A DNA stretch of 64,000 nt from Gluconacetobacter tumulicola (GTDB taxonomy: Bacteria; Pseudomonadota; Alphaproteobacteria; Acetobacterales; Acetobacteraceae). The stretch covers positions 1-64,000 of the forward strand of contig NZ_JABEQL010000003.1 in NCBI RefSeq assembly GCF_014174215.1, written 5' to 3'. Below the pieces are notes generated by a model that was given only the letters and a program-made list of their open reading frames with translations, searched no databases and was not told the origin of the DNA. Positions 44,552 to 51,909 of this stretch are shown piece by piece (the first letter of the stretch is position 1; each line of letters starts with the position of its first letter). A program made the translations under genes and the position numbers.

Positions 44552-45961
44552 TCAGATATGCAATGCCCCGTCATAGGCGGCCAGCACCGCCTCGTGCATC
44601 GCTTCCGAAATGGTGGGATGCGGAAAGACCGTTTCCTTCAATTCAGCGTCGGTCAGTTCCGATGTCCGGGCAATGACATAGCCCTGGATCATTTCCGTCA
44701 CCTCGGCGCCGATCATGTGCGCGCCCAGCAGCTCGCCGGTTTCGGCATCGAACACCGTTTTGACCAGCCCTTCGGGCTCGCCCATCGCGATGGCCTTGCC
44801 ATTGCCGATGAAGGGGAAGCGGCCGACACGCACCTTGTGCCCGGCTTCCTTCGCGCGGGCCTCGGTCAGCCCGACCGAGGCGATCTGCGGGCGGCAATAG
44901 GTGCAGCCGGGAATGTTCAGCGGGTCGATCGGGTGGACATGCTTCCCGGCGATCGCCTCGACGCACATCACGCCCTCATGGCTGGCCTTGTGCGCCAGCC
45001 AGGGCGGCCCGGCCAGATCGCCGATGGCGTAGACGCCCGGCTCGCCGGTGAAGCATTTCGCATCGACCTTCACATGCGTCCGGTCGACGGTAACGGCGGT
45101 GCCTTCCAGGCCCAGCTTCTCGACATTGCCGACAATACCCACGGCCGAGATCACGCGATCGACGGTGATGGCGTGCGTCTTGCCCCCGGCTTCGACCGCC
45201 AGGCTGACATTGTTGGCGCCCTTGGTGATGGGCCCGAGCTTCGCACCCGTCAGGATGGTCATGCCCTGCTTGACGAACGCCTTGTGCGCCAGGGCGCTGA
45301 TTTCCTCGTCCTCGACCGGCAGGATACGGTCCAGCACTTCGACGACCGTCACCTCGGCGCCCATGTTGCGGTAGAACGAGGCGAATTCGATGCCGATCGC
45401 GCCCGAGCCGATCACCAGCAGCGATTTGGGCATTTCGGTCGGCACCATCGCCTCGCGATAGGACCAGATCAGCTTGCCGTCGGGCTCCAGCCCCGGCAGC
45501 ACGCGGGCACGCGCACCGGTCGCCAGAATGACGTTCTTCGCACTCAGCGTCGCAACCGGCTTGCCGTCCTTGGTGACGGACAGCAGGCGGCGACTGCCAT
45601 CCTTGCCCGCCAGCGCCCCGAACCCGTCGAAGACCGCAACCTTGTTCTTCTTCAGCAGGTGCCCGACGCCGGAGGAAAGCTGCCCGGCAACCTGGCGCGA
45701 GCGCTTGACCACCTTTTGCAGGTCAAAACGCACATTGTCGGCCGCGAAGCCGAAATCGCCCAGATGGTGCAGCAGGTGATTGATCTCGGACGCGCGCAGC
45801 AACGCCTTGGTCGGGATGCAGCCCCAGTTGAGGCAGATGCCGCCCAGATGATTGGCCTCGACCAACGCAGTCTGGAGCCCAAGCTGCGCGGCCCGGATCG
45901 CGGCAACATACCCGCCGGGACCGCCGCCGACGACGACGAGATCGAATTCTGTCTTGTTCAT
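44552..45961 (-). CDS. lpd: Dihydrolipoamide dehydrogenase (E3)
   Basis: FAD-dependent E3 of the pyruvate dehydrogenase complex that reoxidises lipoyl groups with NAD+. The 469 residues have VVVGGGPGGYVAAIRAAQ, the redox-active CLNWGC (Cys43, Cys48), a second nucleotide loop VIGSGAIGIEFASFYRNMG, YAIGDLAGPPWLAHKAS and the terminal HPTISE with the catalytic His-Glu. Start at 45961 gives the standard family N-terminus. Fourth gene of the pdh cluster. Confidence 0.96.
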   Translation of the reverse strand: MNKTEFDLVVVGGGPGGYVAAIRAAQLGLQTALVEANHLGGICLNWGCIPTKALLRASEINHLLHHLGDFGFAADNVRFDLQKVVKRSRQVAGQLSSGVGHLLKKNKVAVFDGFGALAGKDGSRRLLSVTKDGKPVATLSAKNVILATGARARVLPGLEPDGKLIWSYREAMVPTEMPKSLLVIGSGAIGIEFASFYRNMGAEVTVVEVLDRILPVEDEEISALAHKAFVKQGMTILTGAKLGPITKGANNVSLAVEAGGKTHAITVDRVISAVGIVGNVEKLGLEGTAVTVDRTHVKVDAKCFTGEPGVYAIGDLAGPPWLAHKASHEGVMCVEAIAGKHVHPIDPLNIPGCTYCRPQIASVGLTEARAKEAGHKVRVGRFPFIGNGKAIAMGEPEGLVKTVFDAETGELLGAHMIGAEVTEMIQGYVIARTSELTDAELKETVFPHPTISEAMHEAVLAAYDGALHI

Positions 45962-46062: not shown

Positions 46063-47331
46063 TCAGACCACGAGGCTGAGCGGCGATTCGACCACCGAGC
46101 GGAAGGCGGCCACCCATTCGGCCGCCAGCGCGCCGTCGACCACGCGATGATCGACCGACAGCGTCACGGTCATGACGGTGGCGATCGCAATGGAATCCCC
46201 CTTCACCACCGCCCGCTTCTCGCCCGCCGCGATGGCCAGGATGGCGGCCTGCGGCGGGTTGATGATGGCCGAGAACTCCTTGACCCCGTACATGCCCATG
46301 TTCGAGATCGAGAACGAGCCGCCTTGGAATTCGTGCGGCTTCAGCTTGCCGGCGCGGGCACGGGCGATCAGTTCCTTGGCCTCGTTGCTGATCTGGCTCA
46401 GCGACTTGCGGTCGGCATTGCGGATGATCGGCGTGATCAGCCCGTCGGGCACCGACACCGCGACCGAGATATCGACATCGTCATACAGGATGGTCGCATC
46501 CTCGGTGTAGGACGCGTTGACCTTCGGCACCCGCCGCAGCGTGACGGCGACGGCCTTGATCAGCAGATCGTTGACCGACAGCTTGAACGCCCCCGCCCCT
46601 TCGGCCGGCGAGGACGCATTGAGCTGCGCACGCAGGGCCAGCAGCGCATCCAGTTCCACGTCCATGGCGACGTAGAAATGCGGAATGGTCGATTTCGCCT
46701 CGGTCAGCCGGCGCGCGATGACCTTGCGCACCGAAGAATTCGGCACGAGGGTATGCGGTACGTCGATCGCCACCGCCGGCGTCGGTCGCGGCGCGGCCTT
46801 CGGAGCGGCGGGCACGGCAGCCGGCGCGGCCACGGCCGCTTCGACGTCACGGCGCACGATGCGCCCATTTGGCCCGCTACCCTTCACCTGGGCCAGGTCG
46901 ACGCCCTTCTGGGCCGCGATACGCCGGGCGAGCGGCGAGGCGAAGACCCGCCCTGCTTTCAGTGCAACCTCGGCGACCGGGGCCGGAACGGCGACCGACG
47001 CGGCAGGCGTCGCAACCGGCGTCGCCACAGGGGCGGCCGGGGCCGCCTCAGGCGCGGCAGCAGCCGGCGCCGCATCCGGCACCGCCTCGCCTTCCGCCAC
47101 CAGAATGGCGATCGGTGCATTCACCTTCACGCCTTCGGTGCCGGCCTCGACCAGGATGCGCCCCAGCGTGCCTTCATCGACGGCCTCGACCTCCATCGTC
47201 GCCTTGTCGGTCTCGATCTCGGCGATCACGTCGCCGGAGGCGATGGCTTCGCCTTCCTTCTTCAGCCAGCGGGCCAGCTTGCCCTCGGTCATGGTCGGCG
47301 ACAAAGCCGGCATCAGGATGTTCACGGACAT
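46063..47331 (-). CDS. aceF: Dihydrolipoamide acetyltransferase (PDH E2)
   Basis: Core subunit of pyruvate dehydrogenase. The 422 residues comprise one N-terminal lipoyl domain (lipoyl Lys43 in [10 protein letters not shown]), an Ala/Pro-rich linker (about 82-125), the E1/E3-binding domain (FASPLARRIAAQKGVDLAQV, near 130-165), a second Ala/Pro linker, and the catalytic domain with DHRVVDG (His395). Starts at 47331 and lies 12 bases after pdhB. Order and length match the alphaproteobacterial type. Confidence 0.96.
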   Translation of the reverse strand: MSVNILMPALSPTMTEGKLARWLKKEGEAIASGDVIAEIETDKATMEVEAVDEGTLGRILVEAGTEGVKVNAPIAILVAEGEAVPDAAPAAAAPEAAPAAPVATPVATPAASVAVPAPVAEVALKAGRVFASPLARRIAAQKGVDLAQVKGSGPNGRIVRRDVEAAVAAPAAVPAAPKAAPRPTPAVAIDVPHTLVPNSSVRKVIARRLTEAKSTIPHFYVAMDVELDALLALRAQLNASSPAEGAGAFKLSVNDLLIKAVAVTLRRVPKVNASYTEDATILYDDVDISVAVSVPDGLITPIIRNADRKSLSQISNEAKELIARARAGKLKPHEFQGGSFSISNMGMYGVKEFSAIINPPQAAILAIAAGEKRAVVKGDSIAIATVMTVTLSVDHRVVDGALAAEWVAAFRSVVESPLSLVV

Positions 47332-47343
47332 GGCGCGTGCTCC

Positions 47344-48687
47344 TCAGACCAGCTTGCGGACCGCATCCACCACCCAGGTCGGGTTCGGGAGGGCCAGCTT
47401 TTCCAGATTGGCGGCAAAGGGCATCGGCACGTCGGCGCCGGCAACCCGCGCCGGCGGCGCGTCGAGATAATCGAACGCATGTTCGATAACCTGCATCGCC
47501 ACTTCCGCGCCGATACCGGCGAAGGGCCAGCCTTCCTCGACACAGACCAGACGGCTGGTCTTCTTCACGCTGGCCACGATCGTCTCGGTGTCGAGCGGAC
47601 GGATGGTCCGCAGATTGATCACCTCGGCCGAAATCCCCTGCTCGGCCAGGATCGCGGCGGCTTCCAGCGCCGTGCCGACCATGATCGAGAAGGCGACGAT
47701 GGTCACGTCCGTCCCCTCGCGCTCGATCTTCGCGCGGCCGATCGGCAGGATGAAATCGTCATCGATCGGGCACGGAAACTTCTGGCCGTAGAGGATCTCG
47801 TTTTCCAGCACGATCACCGGGTTCGGATCGCGGATCGCCGCCCGCAGCAGCCCCTTGGCATCGGCCGAGGACCAGGGCGCCACCACCTTCAGGCCGGGCA
47901 CATGGCCATACCAGCTCGCATAGCACTGCGAATGCTGGGCGCCCACGCGGGCGGCGGCGCCGTTCGGGCCACGGAAGACGATCGGGCAGGAAATCTGGCC
48001 GCCCGACATGTAGCGCGTCTTGGCCGCCGAATTGATGATGTGGTCGATCGCCTGCATCGCGAAATTCATGGTCATGAATTCCACGATCGGCTTCAGCCCC
48101 GTCAGCGCGGCACCGACCGCCATGCCGGTGAAGCCATGTTCGGTGATCGGCGTGTCGATCACGCGCTTCTCGCCGAATTCGTCCAGCAGGCCCTGCGAGA
48201 CCTTGTAGGCCCCCTGGTACTGCGCGACTTCCTCGCCGATCAGGAACACATCCTCGTCCCGCCGCAACTCGGCGGCCATCGCGTCGCGCAACGCTTCGCG
48301 CACCGTGATCTCGACCGTCTCGCCCCACTCCTTGTCGGGCGCGACCGTCGGTGCTGCCGGTGCCGCCTGGGCCGGAGCTGCCGGTGCGGTCTGCGCCGCG
48401 GCCGGGACAGCCGCTTTTGGCGCCGCCGCCGGCGCGGCATCCGCGCCTTCCGATTGCAGGTTCGCGATCGGCGTGTTCACCGCCACATGCTCGGTGCCTT
48501 CCGGCACCAGGATGTCGGCCAGCGTGCCCTCATCGACGGCCTCGACTTCCATGGTCGCCTTGTCGGTCTCGATCTCGGCAATCACGTCGCCGGCGGCGAT
48601 ATGGTCGCCAGGCGTCTTCAGCCAGCGGGCCAGCTTGCCTTCTGTCATGGTCGGCGACAAAGCGGGCATCAGGATCTGGGTGGTCAT
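47344..48687 (-). CDS. pdhB: Pyruvate dehydrogenase E1 component, beta subunit with N-terminal lipoyl domain
   Basis: Partner of PdhA in the decarboxylation of pyruvate. The 447 residues are about 120 longer than a plain E1-beta because of a full lipoyl domain at 1-80 (lipoyl Lys43) nearly identical to that of E2, joined by an Ala/Pro linker. The E1-beta part follows from about 125 ([38 protein letters not shown] and so on). Such a lipoylated E1-beta is known in Zymomonas, Sinorhizobium and relatives. It lies 3 bases after pdhA. Confidence 0.95.
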
Positions 48688-48690
48688 CGT

Positions 48691-49716
48691 TCAGCCCTCC
48701 ACCAGCACGTCGGTCCACAGTTCCGACGGATCGGGTTCCGGGCTGCTCTGCGCAAAATCGGCTGCATCCGCCACAATCGCCTTCACCTTGTCCTCAAGAG
48801 CTTTCAGTTCCGCCTCCTCGACACCGAGCGTCAGCAGTTCACGACGCACCCGGTCGATCGGGTCATGGTTCTTGCGCATCTCGTCCACTTCGCTGCGCGG
48901 ACGATATTTCGCGGGGTCGGACATGGAATGGCCGCGATAGCGATAGGTCGCCATTTCCAGCAGGAACGGCCCCTTGCCCTCACGGCAATATTCCACGGCC
49001 TCGCGCGCGGCCTGACGCACGGCCTCGACATCCATGCCGTCGACCTTGCGCCCCGGAATCCCCCAGGGCTCGCCATTGCGCCACAGTTCCTTGGACGCCG
49101 AGGCGCGCTCGACGCTGGTGCCCATGCCGTAATGATTGTTCTCGATCACGAACACGCAGGGCAGCTTGTGCAGGGCCGCCAGGTTGAAGCTCTCATAGAC
49201 CTGGCCCTGGTTGGACGCCCCCTCGCCGAAATAGGCGATCGAGACCTCGTCCGTGCCGCGATATTTGTTCGCGAAGGCCAGACCGATCCCCAGCGCAACC
49301 TGGGCACCGACGATCCCGTGGCCGCCATAGAAATTCTTCTCGCGCGAGAACATGTGCATCGACCCGCCCTTGCCGCGGGAATAGCCGCCCTCGCGCCCCG
49401 TCAGCTCGGCCATGACGCCGCGCGGGTCCATGCCGGCGGCCAGCATCTGCCCATGGTCGCGATAGGAGGTGATCAGCTTGTCGCCCTGCTTCAGTTCCAT
49501 CTGAACGCCGACGACCACGGCTTCCTGGCCGATATACAGGTGGCAGAAGCCGCCGATCAGACCCATGCCATACAACTGGCCCGCGCGCTCTTCGAACCGG
49601 CGGATCAGCACCATGTCGTAAAAGGCGTGCTTCAGCTCGTCCGTGGTGAAGATCGCATTGTTCCGGTCGGGATTGGAGACGCCCGCGCCAGTGCCGGACG
49701 GTTTTTTATCGCCCAT
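48691..49716 (-). CDS. pdhA: Pyruvate dehydrogenase E1 component, alpha subunit
   Basis: Thiamine-diphosphate subunit of PDH. The 341 residues carry GFCHLYIGQEAVVVG, SYRDHGQMLAAG, RGKGGSMHMFS, the cofactor motif ending ENNHYGMGTS and the regulatory-loop-like YRYRGHSMSDPAKYR. The ThDP motif reads GEG (164-166) instead of the usual GDG, so the magnesium ligand is Glu. GGGAGAG precedes the ATG at 49716; 28 in-frame codons upstream are not used. First gene of the pdhA-pdhB-aceF-lpd-lipA-ratA series. Confidence 0.95.
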   Translation of the reverse strand: MGDKKPSGTGAGVSNPDRNNAIFTTDELKHAFYDMVLIRRFEERAGQLYGMGLIGGFCHLYIGQEAVVVGVQMELKQGDKLITSYRDHGQMLAAGMDPRGVMAELTGREGGYSRGKGGSMHMFSREKNFYGGHGIVGAQVALGIGLAFANKYRGTDEVSIAYFGEGASNQGQVYESFNLAALHKLPCVFVIENNHYGMGTSVERASASKELWRNGEPWGIPGRKVDGMDVEAVRQAAREAVEYCREGKGPFLLEMATYRYRGHSMSDPAKYRPRSEVDEMRKNHDPIDRVRRELLTLGVEEAELKALEDKVKAIVADAADFAQSSPEPDPSELWTDVLVEG

Positions 49717-49820
49717 GGTTTCTCTCCCTTTTTCGCGCACCGCGGCGCCAGAGAAGGATGATTGTCCCACCCTCTGGCGCTCCGGTCTGGTGATGTTCAC
49801 TCAATTTGCCGTGTTTACGG

Positions 49821-49844
49821 ATCGGGAATGCAGATTTTCCCGAT
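49821..49844. promoter_or_regulatory. 24-base dyad in the pdhA-ScfR intergenic region
   Basis: ATCGGGAA-N8-TTCCCGAT, a perfect 8+8 inverted repeat whose arm centres are 16 bases apart. It lies about 105 bases ahead of pdhA and 147 bases ahead of the divergent regulator gene, a good position for an operator serving either. The binder is unknown; the adjacent ScfR-type regulator is the natural candidate. Confidence 0.55.
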
Positions 49845-49990
49845 AGGCCGACATGCGACGGCGATGGCGGAATCCGACGGCAGATTTACGATATTCGCTA
49901 CCTTATTTACCGTGCGGAGACCCGTCCTCAAAGGCGGAAAGAGGTGTAAGGTCGGAAACAAACCGGACGAGTATGGTAAACGGAGTGAAC

Positions 49991-51409
49991 GTGAGCGACA
50001 CCAGCGGTCGAAAGATGTTTTGCGGCAACCGCGTGCGTGCATTGCGGATCGCGAATGCGATCTCGCAGAGGATGATGGCCCAGCGCCTGGCCATTTCCGC
50101 GAGTTACCTCAATCAGATCGAAAACAACGCCAAGCCGGTCCCGACGCGATTGCTGGTGACACTGTGCGACATGTTCTCCGTCGCCCCGAGCTATTTCGGT
50201 GATGACGGCGAGATCCGGATGCTCCGCCTTCTGCGGGAGGCATCCAGCGACCCGATGTTCCGCTCCTCGCTACCGGAACGCGAGATCCATGGCGCCATTA
50301 GGGACAATCCCGCCTTCGTGAAGATGTTTCTGGAACTCTATCGCTCGGCCAGGACCATGCACGAGCAGGGGAGCGAGGCCCAGCCGGACAAACGGACGGA
50401 AGCCGAGCGCGCCTCCGCATGGTCCAAACTCTCGTCGGCCTACGAGATCGTCGGCGACTGGGTGCAGGCGGAACGGAACTATTTCGACACGCTCGACCGC
50501 GCGGCCGAACAATTGTACGAAACCGCGCGGCTGGACACGGATACGATCGGAACCGGACTGGAGCGCCACCTGCGTGACCGCTTCGGCGTCACGGTCTCCA
50601 CCACGCCGGCCGAACCCACCGTCGCCAACAGCAGCCCATGCCATTTCGACACCACTGAAAAAACCGCCCATTTCGTGCCCGGCCTGCCCGGCCCCACCCG
50701 GACATTCTGCATGGCGCGGCTGGTCGCCCATCTGGGATATTGCACGCTGATCGACGAGGCCGCACGCCACCCGCTCCTGTCCGACGAGAACACGCGCTCG
50801 ATCGCCCGCGCGGCCATGGCCAATTACTTCGCGGGCGGACTTATCATGCCGTACGAATTGTTCGCGGCAAAAGCCAAGGCCTTCAAACACGATCTCGATC
50901 GCCTGCAAACGACCTTCTCGGCCAGTTTCGAGCAGGTATGCCAGCGGCTCTCATCCCTCCAGCGTCCGGGCGCGGAGGGCGTTCCATTCTATTTCATCAA
51001 GGCGGATGTGGCGGGCAACGTCCTGAAAAGCTACAGCGCCAACCGCTTCAGCCGCGCCCGCTTCGGGGCACTGTGCCCACGCTGGAACGTCTTCGAAAGC
51101 TTCTCGGCCGCAGGAAAGCTGATCATCCAGATTTCGCAGGACACTGAAGGCGGCCTCTTCATCAGCGTGGCGCGGGCTGTCGTCTCCCACCCTCAGTCAT
51201 TCTTCGACCGCCAGCCGAAACGCGCGATCGTGCTGGGCTGCTCCGTCGCCCATGCGGACGAGGTCGTCTATTCGTCGATGCTGAACCTGCATGATCCGCG
51301 CACATTCATCTCGATCGGCCCCGGCTGCCGGTCATGCGTCCGCGCCGATTGCGAGCATCGCGCGATGCCGCAGAGCGGTTTCTTCTTTCAGCCGGCGGCA
51401 GGCGCCTGA
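49991..51409 (+). CDS. ScfR/RamB-type XRE-family regulator (short-chain fatty acyl-CoA regulator)
   Basis: Transcription factor of about 472 residues. An N-terminal XRE helix-turn-helix ([32 protein letters not shown]) is followed by a long ligand domain with an IrrE-like portion ([20 protein letters not shown]) and a C-terminal DUF2083-like region ending with clustered cysteines ([14 protein letters not shown]). Relatives sense acyl-CoA levels and control propionyl-CoA, acetate or pyruvate dehydrogenase genes. GTG at 49991 has GGAG six bases ahead; ATG at 49973 is the alternative. Divergent from the pdh operon, so PDH is the likely target. The 3' end overlaps moaC by 22 bases. Confidence 0.85.
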
Positions 51410-51909
51410 CCCGGCGCCTCCGCTTCCGCGCGCTGATAGAGCCCCGAGCGTCCACCGGATTTCGTGATCAGGCGGATATGCTCGATCGTCAGATCGCGGT
51501 CGACAGCCTTGCACATATCGTAAAGGGTCAGGGCGCAGACGCTGACCGCCGTCAGGGCCTCCATTTCCACCCCTGTCTGCGCGGCCGTCCCGACACTTGC
51601 CTCGATCTCGATCCCCCTTCCATCCTCGGTCGGGGTCAGTTCCACGCGCACGGAACTCAGAGCCAGCGGATGGCAAAGCGGAATCAGATCCGACGTCTTC
51701 TTGGCCGCCATGATGCCCGCGATACGCGCGACAGCCAGAACATCGCCCTTCTTCATGCCACCCGACAGGATCAGATCCAGCGTTTCCCGCCGCATGATGA
51801 CCAGCCCGCGCGCGACCGCCTGCCGCACTGTCACCGCCTTGTCGGCCACATCCACCATCACGGCGTGACCATTTGCATCCAGATGGGTCAGGCCGCCCTG
51901 AACCGGCAT
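51388..51909 (-). CDS. moaC: Cyclic pyranopterin monophosphate synthase
   Basis: Second enzyme of molybdenum cofactor synthesis, converting 3',8-cyclo-7,8-dihydro-GTP to cPMP. The 173 residues contain [45 protein letters not shown] and [23 protein letters not shown], all hallmark MoaC sequences with the catalytic Lys and Asp. It follows trpC by 3 bases, a linkage usual in Alphaproteobacteria. Convergent overlap with the ScfR gene. Confidence 0.96.

Follow-up and report, generated by a model that had tools for sequence, protein, structure and literature searches.

The pyruvate dehydrogenase (pdh) genes of Enterobacteria are controlled by PdhR, a GntR-family repressor that responds to pyruvate, and Gluconacetobacter is a genus of acetic acid bacteria. 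Three regulators of the ScfR family serve as comparisons, the closest being those of Mycobacterium tuberculosis and Corynebacterium glutamicum. Mycobacterium tuberculosis PrpR (MtPrpR) activates prpDC (PMC6765138), and its footprint is given as TTTGCAAA-N1-TTTGCgAA, that is, boxes with a period of 9 (PMC3420887, PMC6765138). The Paracoccus RamB is an activator with two boxes and an 18-bp spacer (PMC10370305), so that not all family members use period 9. According to PMC4448153, the Corynebacterium glutamicum RamB mostly represses its targets but activates aceE of pyruvate dehydrogenase, which sets a precedent for control of a pyruvate dehydrogenase gene by an ScfR member. Among open-access literature titles we found none describing a pdh-tied ScfR regulator in acetic acid bacteria.

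We analyzed a 64,000-nucleotide stretch of Gluconacetobacter tumulicola DNA (the window) in which a gene for such a regulator stands divergent from the pdh genes, as the initial annotation had proposed. On the minus strand lie pdhA for the E1 alpha subunit (48691..49716; TIGR03182, 490.5 bits, cut-off 393.85), pdhB for the E1 beta subunit with a lipoyl domain (47344..48687; NF008854, 789.1 bits, cut-off 454), pdhC for the E2 acetyltransferase (46063..47331; TIGR01349, 531.4 bits, cut-off 445), and a putative dihydrolipoamide dehydrogenase gene, lpd (44552..45961), assigned from the ORF sequence, its operon position, and a 74% match adjoining pdhC in genome G037. The regulator gene (49991..51409, plus strand, 472 aa) begins at GTG 49991, which leaves the previously noted gap of 274 bases (49717-49990) to pdhA; we favor this start over ATG 49973 because GGAG stands 5 nt ahead of it and because the G037 homologue has an ATG at the equivalent position. 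At its 3′ end the regulator gene meets moaC (51388..51909, minus strand, named from sequence and gene order) tail to tail, with an overlap of 22 bases (51388-51409). Outside the window, contig 3 of the same genome has another E1-alpha-like gene (188287-189225), with 39% identity to pdhA.

We assigned the regulator by its Pfam domains, its PDB sequence match to PrpR, and the mapping of its cysteines. Above the Pfam cut-offs it has an HTH domain (PF12844/PF13560/PF01381), an IrrE-like Peptidase_M78 domain (PF06114), and the ScfRs C-terminal domain (PF09856, 160.9 bits), and its only PDB sequence matches at E <= 0.001 are chains of MtPrpR (E 2.4e-58). By these features it is a member of the ScfR family (PrpR/RamB/PccR-type). 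Within the family it is not RamB by the NCBIfam equivalog model NF038139, on which it scores 333.4 bits against a cut-off of 700, nor does it have the methylcitrate-cycle linkage of a PrpR/MccR ortholog: it adjoins pdh and moaC, and prpD has a separate paralog. Its Pfam matches include no GntR domain, which sets it apart from PdhR, a pdh regulator likewise. All four [4Fe4S] ligands of MtPrpR (Cys363, Cys447, Cys450, and Cys455, with the spacing C447-X2-C-X4-C455) align with cysteines in the seven species that we compared, namely that of the window and those with the best named matches to its regulator, G. asukensis, takamatsuzukensis, liquefaciens, dulcium, sacchari, and aggeris, whose regulators are 91-98% identical. 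These cysteines make up a candidate [4Fe4S] site. Phe240 of the MtPrpR CoA pocket is also matched in all seven. The window regulator thus resembles MtPrpR in domain make-up, the four cysteines, Phe240, divergent arrangement, and a period-9 two-box site; it differs in adjoining pdh and not prpD, in its boxes (GYRAAC, against TTTGCAAA/TTTGCgAA of MtPrpR), and in the replacement of His319 and Lys410.

The period-9 sites lie in the gap, and they are built of TTYRC/GYRAA boxes. On the pdhA side, the putative pdh operator O1 (49795..49818) has three boxes every 9 bases, GTTCAC-TCA-ATTTGC-CGT-GTTTAC, or GTAAAC-ACG-GCAAAT-TGA-GTGAAC when read on the minus strand. The putative operator of the regulator gene itself, O2 (49976..49990), is the period-9 pair GTAAAC-GGA-GTGAAC; it stands directly ahead of the GTG start and surrounds the GGAG ribosome-binding site. 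Between the two we found a weaker candidate, the central period-9 pair ATTTAC-GAT-ATTCGC (49884..49898). The three TTTAC-type hexamers previously reported in the gap are present (TTTAC at 49814, 49885, and 49906; ATTTAC at 49884 and 49905). Two belong to period-9 arrays, and the third (49906..49910) is a single box outside any such pair. Altogether the gap has four period-9 pairs, and one pair each at distances of 12, 18, and 21. Shuffled gaps never had more than one period-9 pair in 5000 shuffles, a test that is not blind, since we defined the boxes with the window and related sequences already in view.

Across the seven species, 22 of 24 columns are invariant at O1, 17 of 18 at O2, and 35 of 38 over 49927-49964 of a regulator-side block (49923..49964) that is perhaps the regulator core promoter; the power of this comparison is limited because the species are close relatives and a core promoter would be kept too. 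The third O1 box is kept in six of seven species, being missing in G. takamatsuzukensis (G042), and the central pair is present in four. All seven, and G037 as well, have the O2 pair. G037 has only one array, at the regulator start; its pdhA side has a lone TTCAC box. We found no sigma-70-like promoter in 49650-50050 and no known RNA element in 49000-51000 (Rfam, E <= 1). A candidate hairpin in the pdhA leader (49739-49786, minus strand) was rejected, as it showed no covariation beyond shuffles in the seven species; the four species that were folded gave z scores of -2.47 (window), -1.69 (liquefaciens), -1.66 (sacchari), and +0.61 (takamatsuzukensis).

Period-9 GYRAA pairs are widespread among regulators of this kind. 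We examined 46 related regulators with distinct upstream sequences, these being the 56 members of our tree minus eight pdh-linked and two malate-synthase-type proteins. Such a pair occurs near or into the start codon in 40 of them (all except L022, L029, L033, L037, L038, and L039), whereas 100 shuffles gave 0.7 on average and never more than 4. The count of 40 is to be read with the kinship of the 46 and their many near-copies in mind. Spacing 9 is the commonest; spacings of 21 and 30 recur in 20 loci apiece, that of 16 in 12 loci, and those of 7 and 14 in 10 apiece. What distinguishes the pdh-linked sites is the last base. All eight pdh-linked O2 sites have C at the end of both boxes (GYRAAC); of the other 40 sites none does, and two have a single box ending in C. 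The PrpR-type paralog of the same genome (L010/L073, contig 25), which is 48% identical to the window regulator and also has a period-9 pair, TTTGCGAAGGATGCGAAG, immediately before its start, differs in its GYRAAG boxes and in its divergent neighbors, prpD and a citrate-synthase-family gene. The ScfR regulators of Acetobacteraceae may thus share a testable box code with period 9, a GYRAA core, and the last base as the candidate specificity position. A matching specificity residue after the recognition helix of the protein was considered and dropped, as it did not cleanly follow box type.

We searched for further copies of the arrays. The three-box O1 pattern has a single match in its own genome. 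Across 14 Gluconacetobacter genomes it has 12 matches, against 5 for a reversed control pattern; six of these lie at pdhA, one in each of the seven regulator-bearing genomes except G042, where the third box is missing; of the others, one further match is in G174 and one each in five of the seven genomes without a pdh-adjacent regulator. The three-box array TTTGCTGCATTTGCCTATTTTGC was observed in two Gluconacetobacter genomes, at G256:C1:1262679-1262701 (L110) and G255:C147:2837-2859 (L109); neither genome gave a match to the G037 regulator query.

The regulator is divergent from pdhA in all six named relatives. Among the 14 Gluconacetobacter genomes, seven have the regulator adjoining pdhA, six have pdhA directly after moaC and no regulator adjoining it, and in one (G255) no pdhA ortholog was found. 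The pdhA upstream sequence of the regulator-bearing genomes differs from that of the regulator-free ones, and none of 23 pdhA loci without an adjacent regulator (6 from Gluconacetobacter and 17 from other genera, the latter being the best-scoring ones within a total of 30 loci) has a period-9 pair within 300 bases upstream of pdhA. In all six regulator-free Gluconacetobacter and in two of the 17 best-scoring other-genus loci, trpC, moaC, and pdhA follow one another on a single strand. This order is therefore probably ancestral, which would make the regulator and gap an insertion and moaC the probable former upstream neighbor of pdhA, now split off by the regulator. A palindrome, TGTTATAACA, stands shortly before pdhA in five Gluconacetobacter loci without an adjacent regulator (L048-L052) and is possibly part of the pdhA promoter there.

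In a tree of the 56 regulators, the seven pdh-linked proteins cluster with their pdh-linked counterpart from G037 (support 99/96). They fall within a wider group (100/98), which takes in four further rows besides the Gluconacetobacter orthologs of the PrpR-type paralog. That paralog was seen to adjoin prpD in the genome of the window, and its upstream sequence looks alike in the other species. The malate-synthase-type paralogs are distant from the pdh-linked group. The placing is somewhat unsure, given the long Gluconacetobacter pdh branch (1.55) and a root set by midpoint only. In pairwise comparison the G037 regulator scores 63% against the prpD-linked paralog and less, 51%, against the window regulator, as expected from the long branch, and the pdh-linked grouping is supported by the shared derived GYRAAC ending at all eight O2 sites.

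The reading that we favor, to which we give a probability of about 0.72, is that a duplicate from the methylcitrate-type PrpR/MccR branch was inserted before pdhA and would bind the period-9 arrays to switch pdh while sensing acyl-CoA. The insertion, between moaC and pdhA, would have brought along a new control region and would be confined to one Gluconacetobacter clade. The regulator would bind O1, on the side of pdhA, and O2, which covers its own ribosome-binding site. Through O1 it would switch pdhABC-lpd, with activation slightly likelier than repression, a small preference because the published ScfR cases are mixed; through O2 it would probably lower its own synthesis. A short-chain acyl-CoA, bound in a pocket beside the candidate [4Fe4S] site, would set its state. 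The direct control of pdh by this regulator that had been suggested before is likely on sequence grounds alone, since an ScfR regulator gene and pdhABC-lpd diverge from a gap that contains putative operator arrays. The C. glutamicum RamB is alike in being an ScfR member that controls a pyruvate dehydrogenase gene (PMC4448153), whereas its motifs lie upstream of many central-carbon genes and the window regulator appears as a local, PrpR-related copy. Against the open-access titles searched, what is new here is this dedicated copy, its box arrays, and an insertion by which the control region of pdhA seems to have been exchanged. The locus is thus a candidate for an acyl-CoA-type switch by which acetic acid bacteria would control pyruvate dehydrogenase through a dedicated regulator. 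Because the control region of a central enzyme has seemingly been replaced by a regulator-operator cassette within one genus, the seven species with and six without it offer a natural comparison.

Relative to MtPrpR, the CoA pocket of the window regulator keeps F240 and K347, has Lys for R338, Gln for H319, and Pro for K410 (in one alignment a Lys stands beside this Pro), and has Pro, or in another alignment Asn, for K217. The changes at 319 and 217 say little, as Gln319 is also found in 5 of the 46 related regulators and position 217 is basic in only one. At 410, all 46 and the G037 protein have Arg and the pdh-linked Gluconacetobacter clade has Pro; the loss of this basic residue is the sole pocket change peculiar to the clade inside its branch, and the CoA pocket may have shifted after recruitment to pdh, so that the usual ligand might be bound in another way. 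Position 155 is Tyr in the pdh-linked regulator. PrpR has Phe here, and the propionate response is also possible with Tyr or Trp; the residue of M. tuberculosis RamB is His (PMC6765138).

That the signal is acetyl-CoA or acetate status, making the regulator a feedback switch on pyruvate dehydrogenase as the initial annotation suggested, is possible but less likely than not. Acetyl-CoA is the product of the enzyme, MtPrpR was co-purified with CoA and some acetyl-CoA (PMC6765138), and RamB, an ScfR member of acetate metabolism, activates aceE (PMC4448153). However, the tree places the window regulator near the PrpR-type paralog that adjoins prpD, its Tyr155 is that of a propionyl-CoA-type member and not the His of M. 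tuberculosis RamB, and an ScfR paralog of acetate/glyoxylate type is located elsewhere in the genome, between the genes for malate synthase G and acetyl-CoA synthetase. We regard propionyl-CoA as a candidate of slightly lower probability: either the pyruvate formed by the methylcitrate cycle or the inhibition of pyruvate dehydrogenase by propionyl-CoA would then demand a matching change in pdh expression. The PrpR-type ancestry together with Tyr155 argues for this, as does the prp locus that the genome keeps, which has a PrpR-type paralog of its own, and propionyl-CoA is described as a well-established inhibitor of pyruvate dehydrogenase (PMC12671195). Against it, the alteration of His319 and of the basic residue at 410 and the long branch (1.55) suggest that the ligand may have changed.

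A more elaborate version of the insertion, which we consider unlikely, is that the methylcitrate regulator was copied before pdhA as a gene-plus-operator cassette, with new GYRAAC boxes in place of GYRAAG and an altered CoA pocket, and works without cross-talk from the resident PrpR. If so, pyruvate dehydrogenase would answer to propionyl-CoA or another acyl-CoA.

It is quite improbable that the regulator controls only itself and distant genes, its adjacency to pdhA being incidental and O1 a part of the regulator promoter. O2 does sit where most related regulators have their pair, the pairing with pdhA is narrow (7 of 14 Gluconacetobacter genomes and G037), and in no other regulator locus that we retrieved was pdhA present in the flanking sequence, which spanned about 1.5 kb at most. 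Yet O1 is nearer to the pdhA start (79-102 bases) than to the regulator start (173-196 bases), and no period-9 pair precedes pdhA at the 23 loci that lack the adjacent regulator. Two-box sites number 21 in the genome, against 3 for a reversed control; four are inside the gap, and none of the 17 beyond it is clearly intergenic, all overlapping ORFs of at least 100 aa. This is a rough test, and the regulon search gives no firm answer, because two of the four gap sites also overlap ORFs of 100 aa or more.

The initial annotation had instead seen the operator in a perfect 24-base dyad, ATCGGGAA-TGCAGATT-TTCCCGAT, which is indeed present at 49821-49844, and we consider this role very improbable. 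The species that keep the divergent regulator do not conserve the dyad: only 9 of its 24 columns are invariant in the seven-species alignment, against 178 of 274 for the full gap and, close to the share in the dyad, 82 of 190 for the fourfold codon sites of the regulator gene. The lowest of the 24-base segments sampled every 6 bases overlaps it (7 of 24, from 49825), and a stretch at 49747-49776 equals it in low conservation. Exact 8-base arms occur in three of the seven species, namely that of the window, G. asukensis (both N8), and G. dulcium (7-base spacer). G. liquefaciens and G. aggeris are left with 6-base arms, which 18 and 8 of 200 shuffles equal, and in G. takamatsuzukensis and G. sacchari the original arms are broken, the best nearby repeats being imperfect and equaled by 13 and 6 of 200 shuffles. 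Dinucleotide-shuffled gaps contain inverted repeats with 8-base arms (spacer 0-20) in 256 of 3000 cases, and the gap itself has a second inverted repeat, with 9-base arms, from 49745. In each of the three exact-arm species, however, just 1 of 200 shuffles of the 45-base dyad segment was as good, so the repeat may not be pure chance. The further copies for which a search had been proposed are absent, ATCGGGAA-N8-TTCCCGAT matching once in the 4.29-Mb genome. The ScfR-family operators described in PMC6765138, PMC10370305, PMC4448153, and PMC3420887 are boxes of a sequence other than the dyad, and the TTYRC/GYRAA arrays appear to be the better operator candidates. A role of the dyad as a terminator was rejected as well, since 49650-50050 has no terminator-like site.

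The acetate/glyoxylate-type gene mentioned above is the third ScfR paralog of the genome (36%; L011/L074, contig 12). The inverted repeat TGTAAA-N4-TTTACA stands upstream of this gene and likewise of L072, its relative in G037, and could be the operator of a RamB-like class of ScfR regulators.
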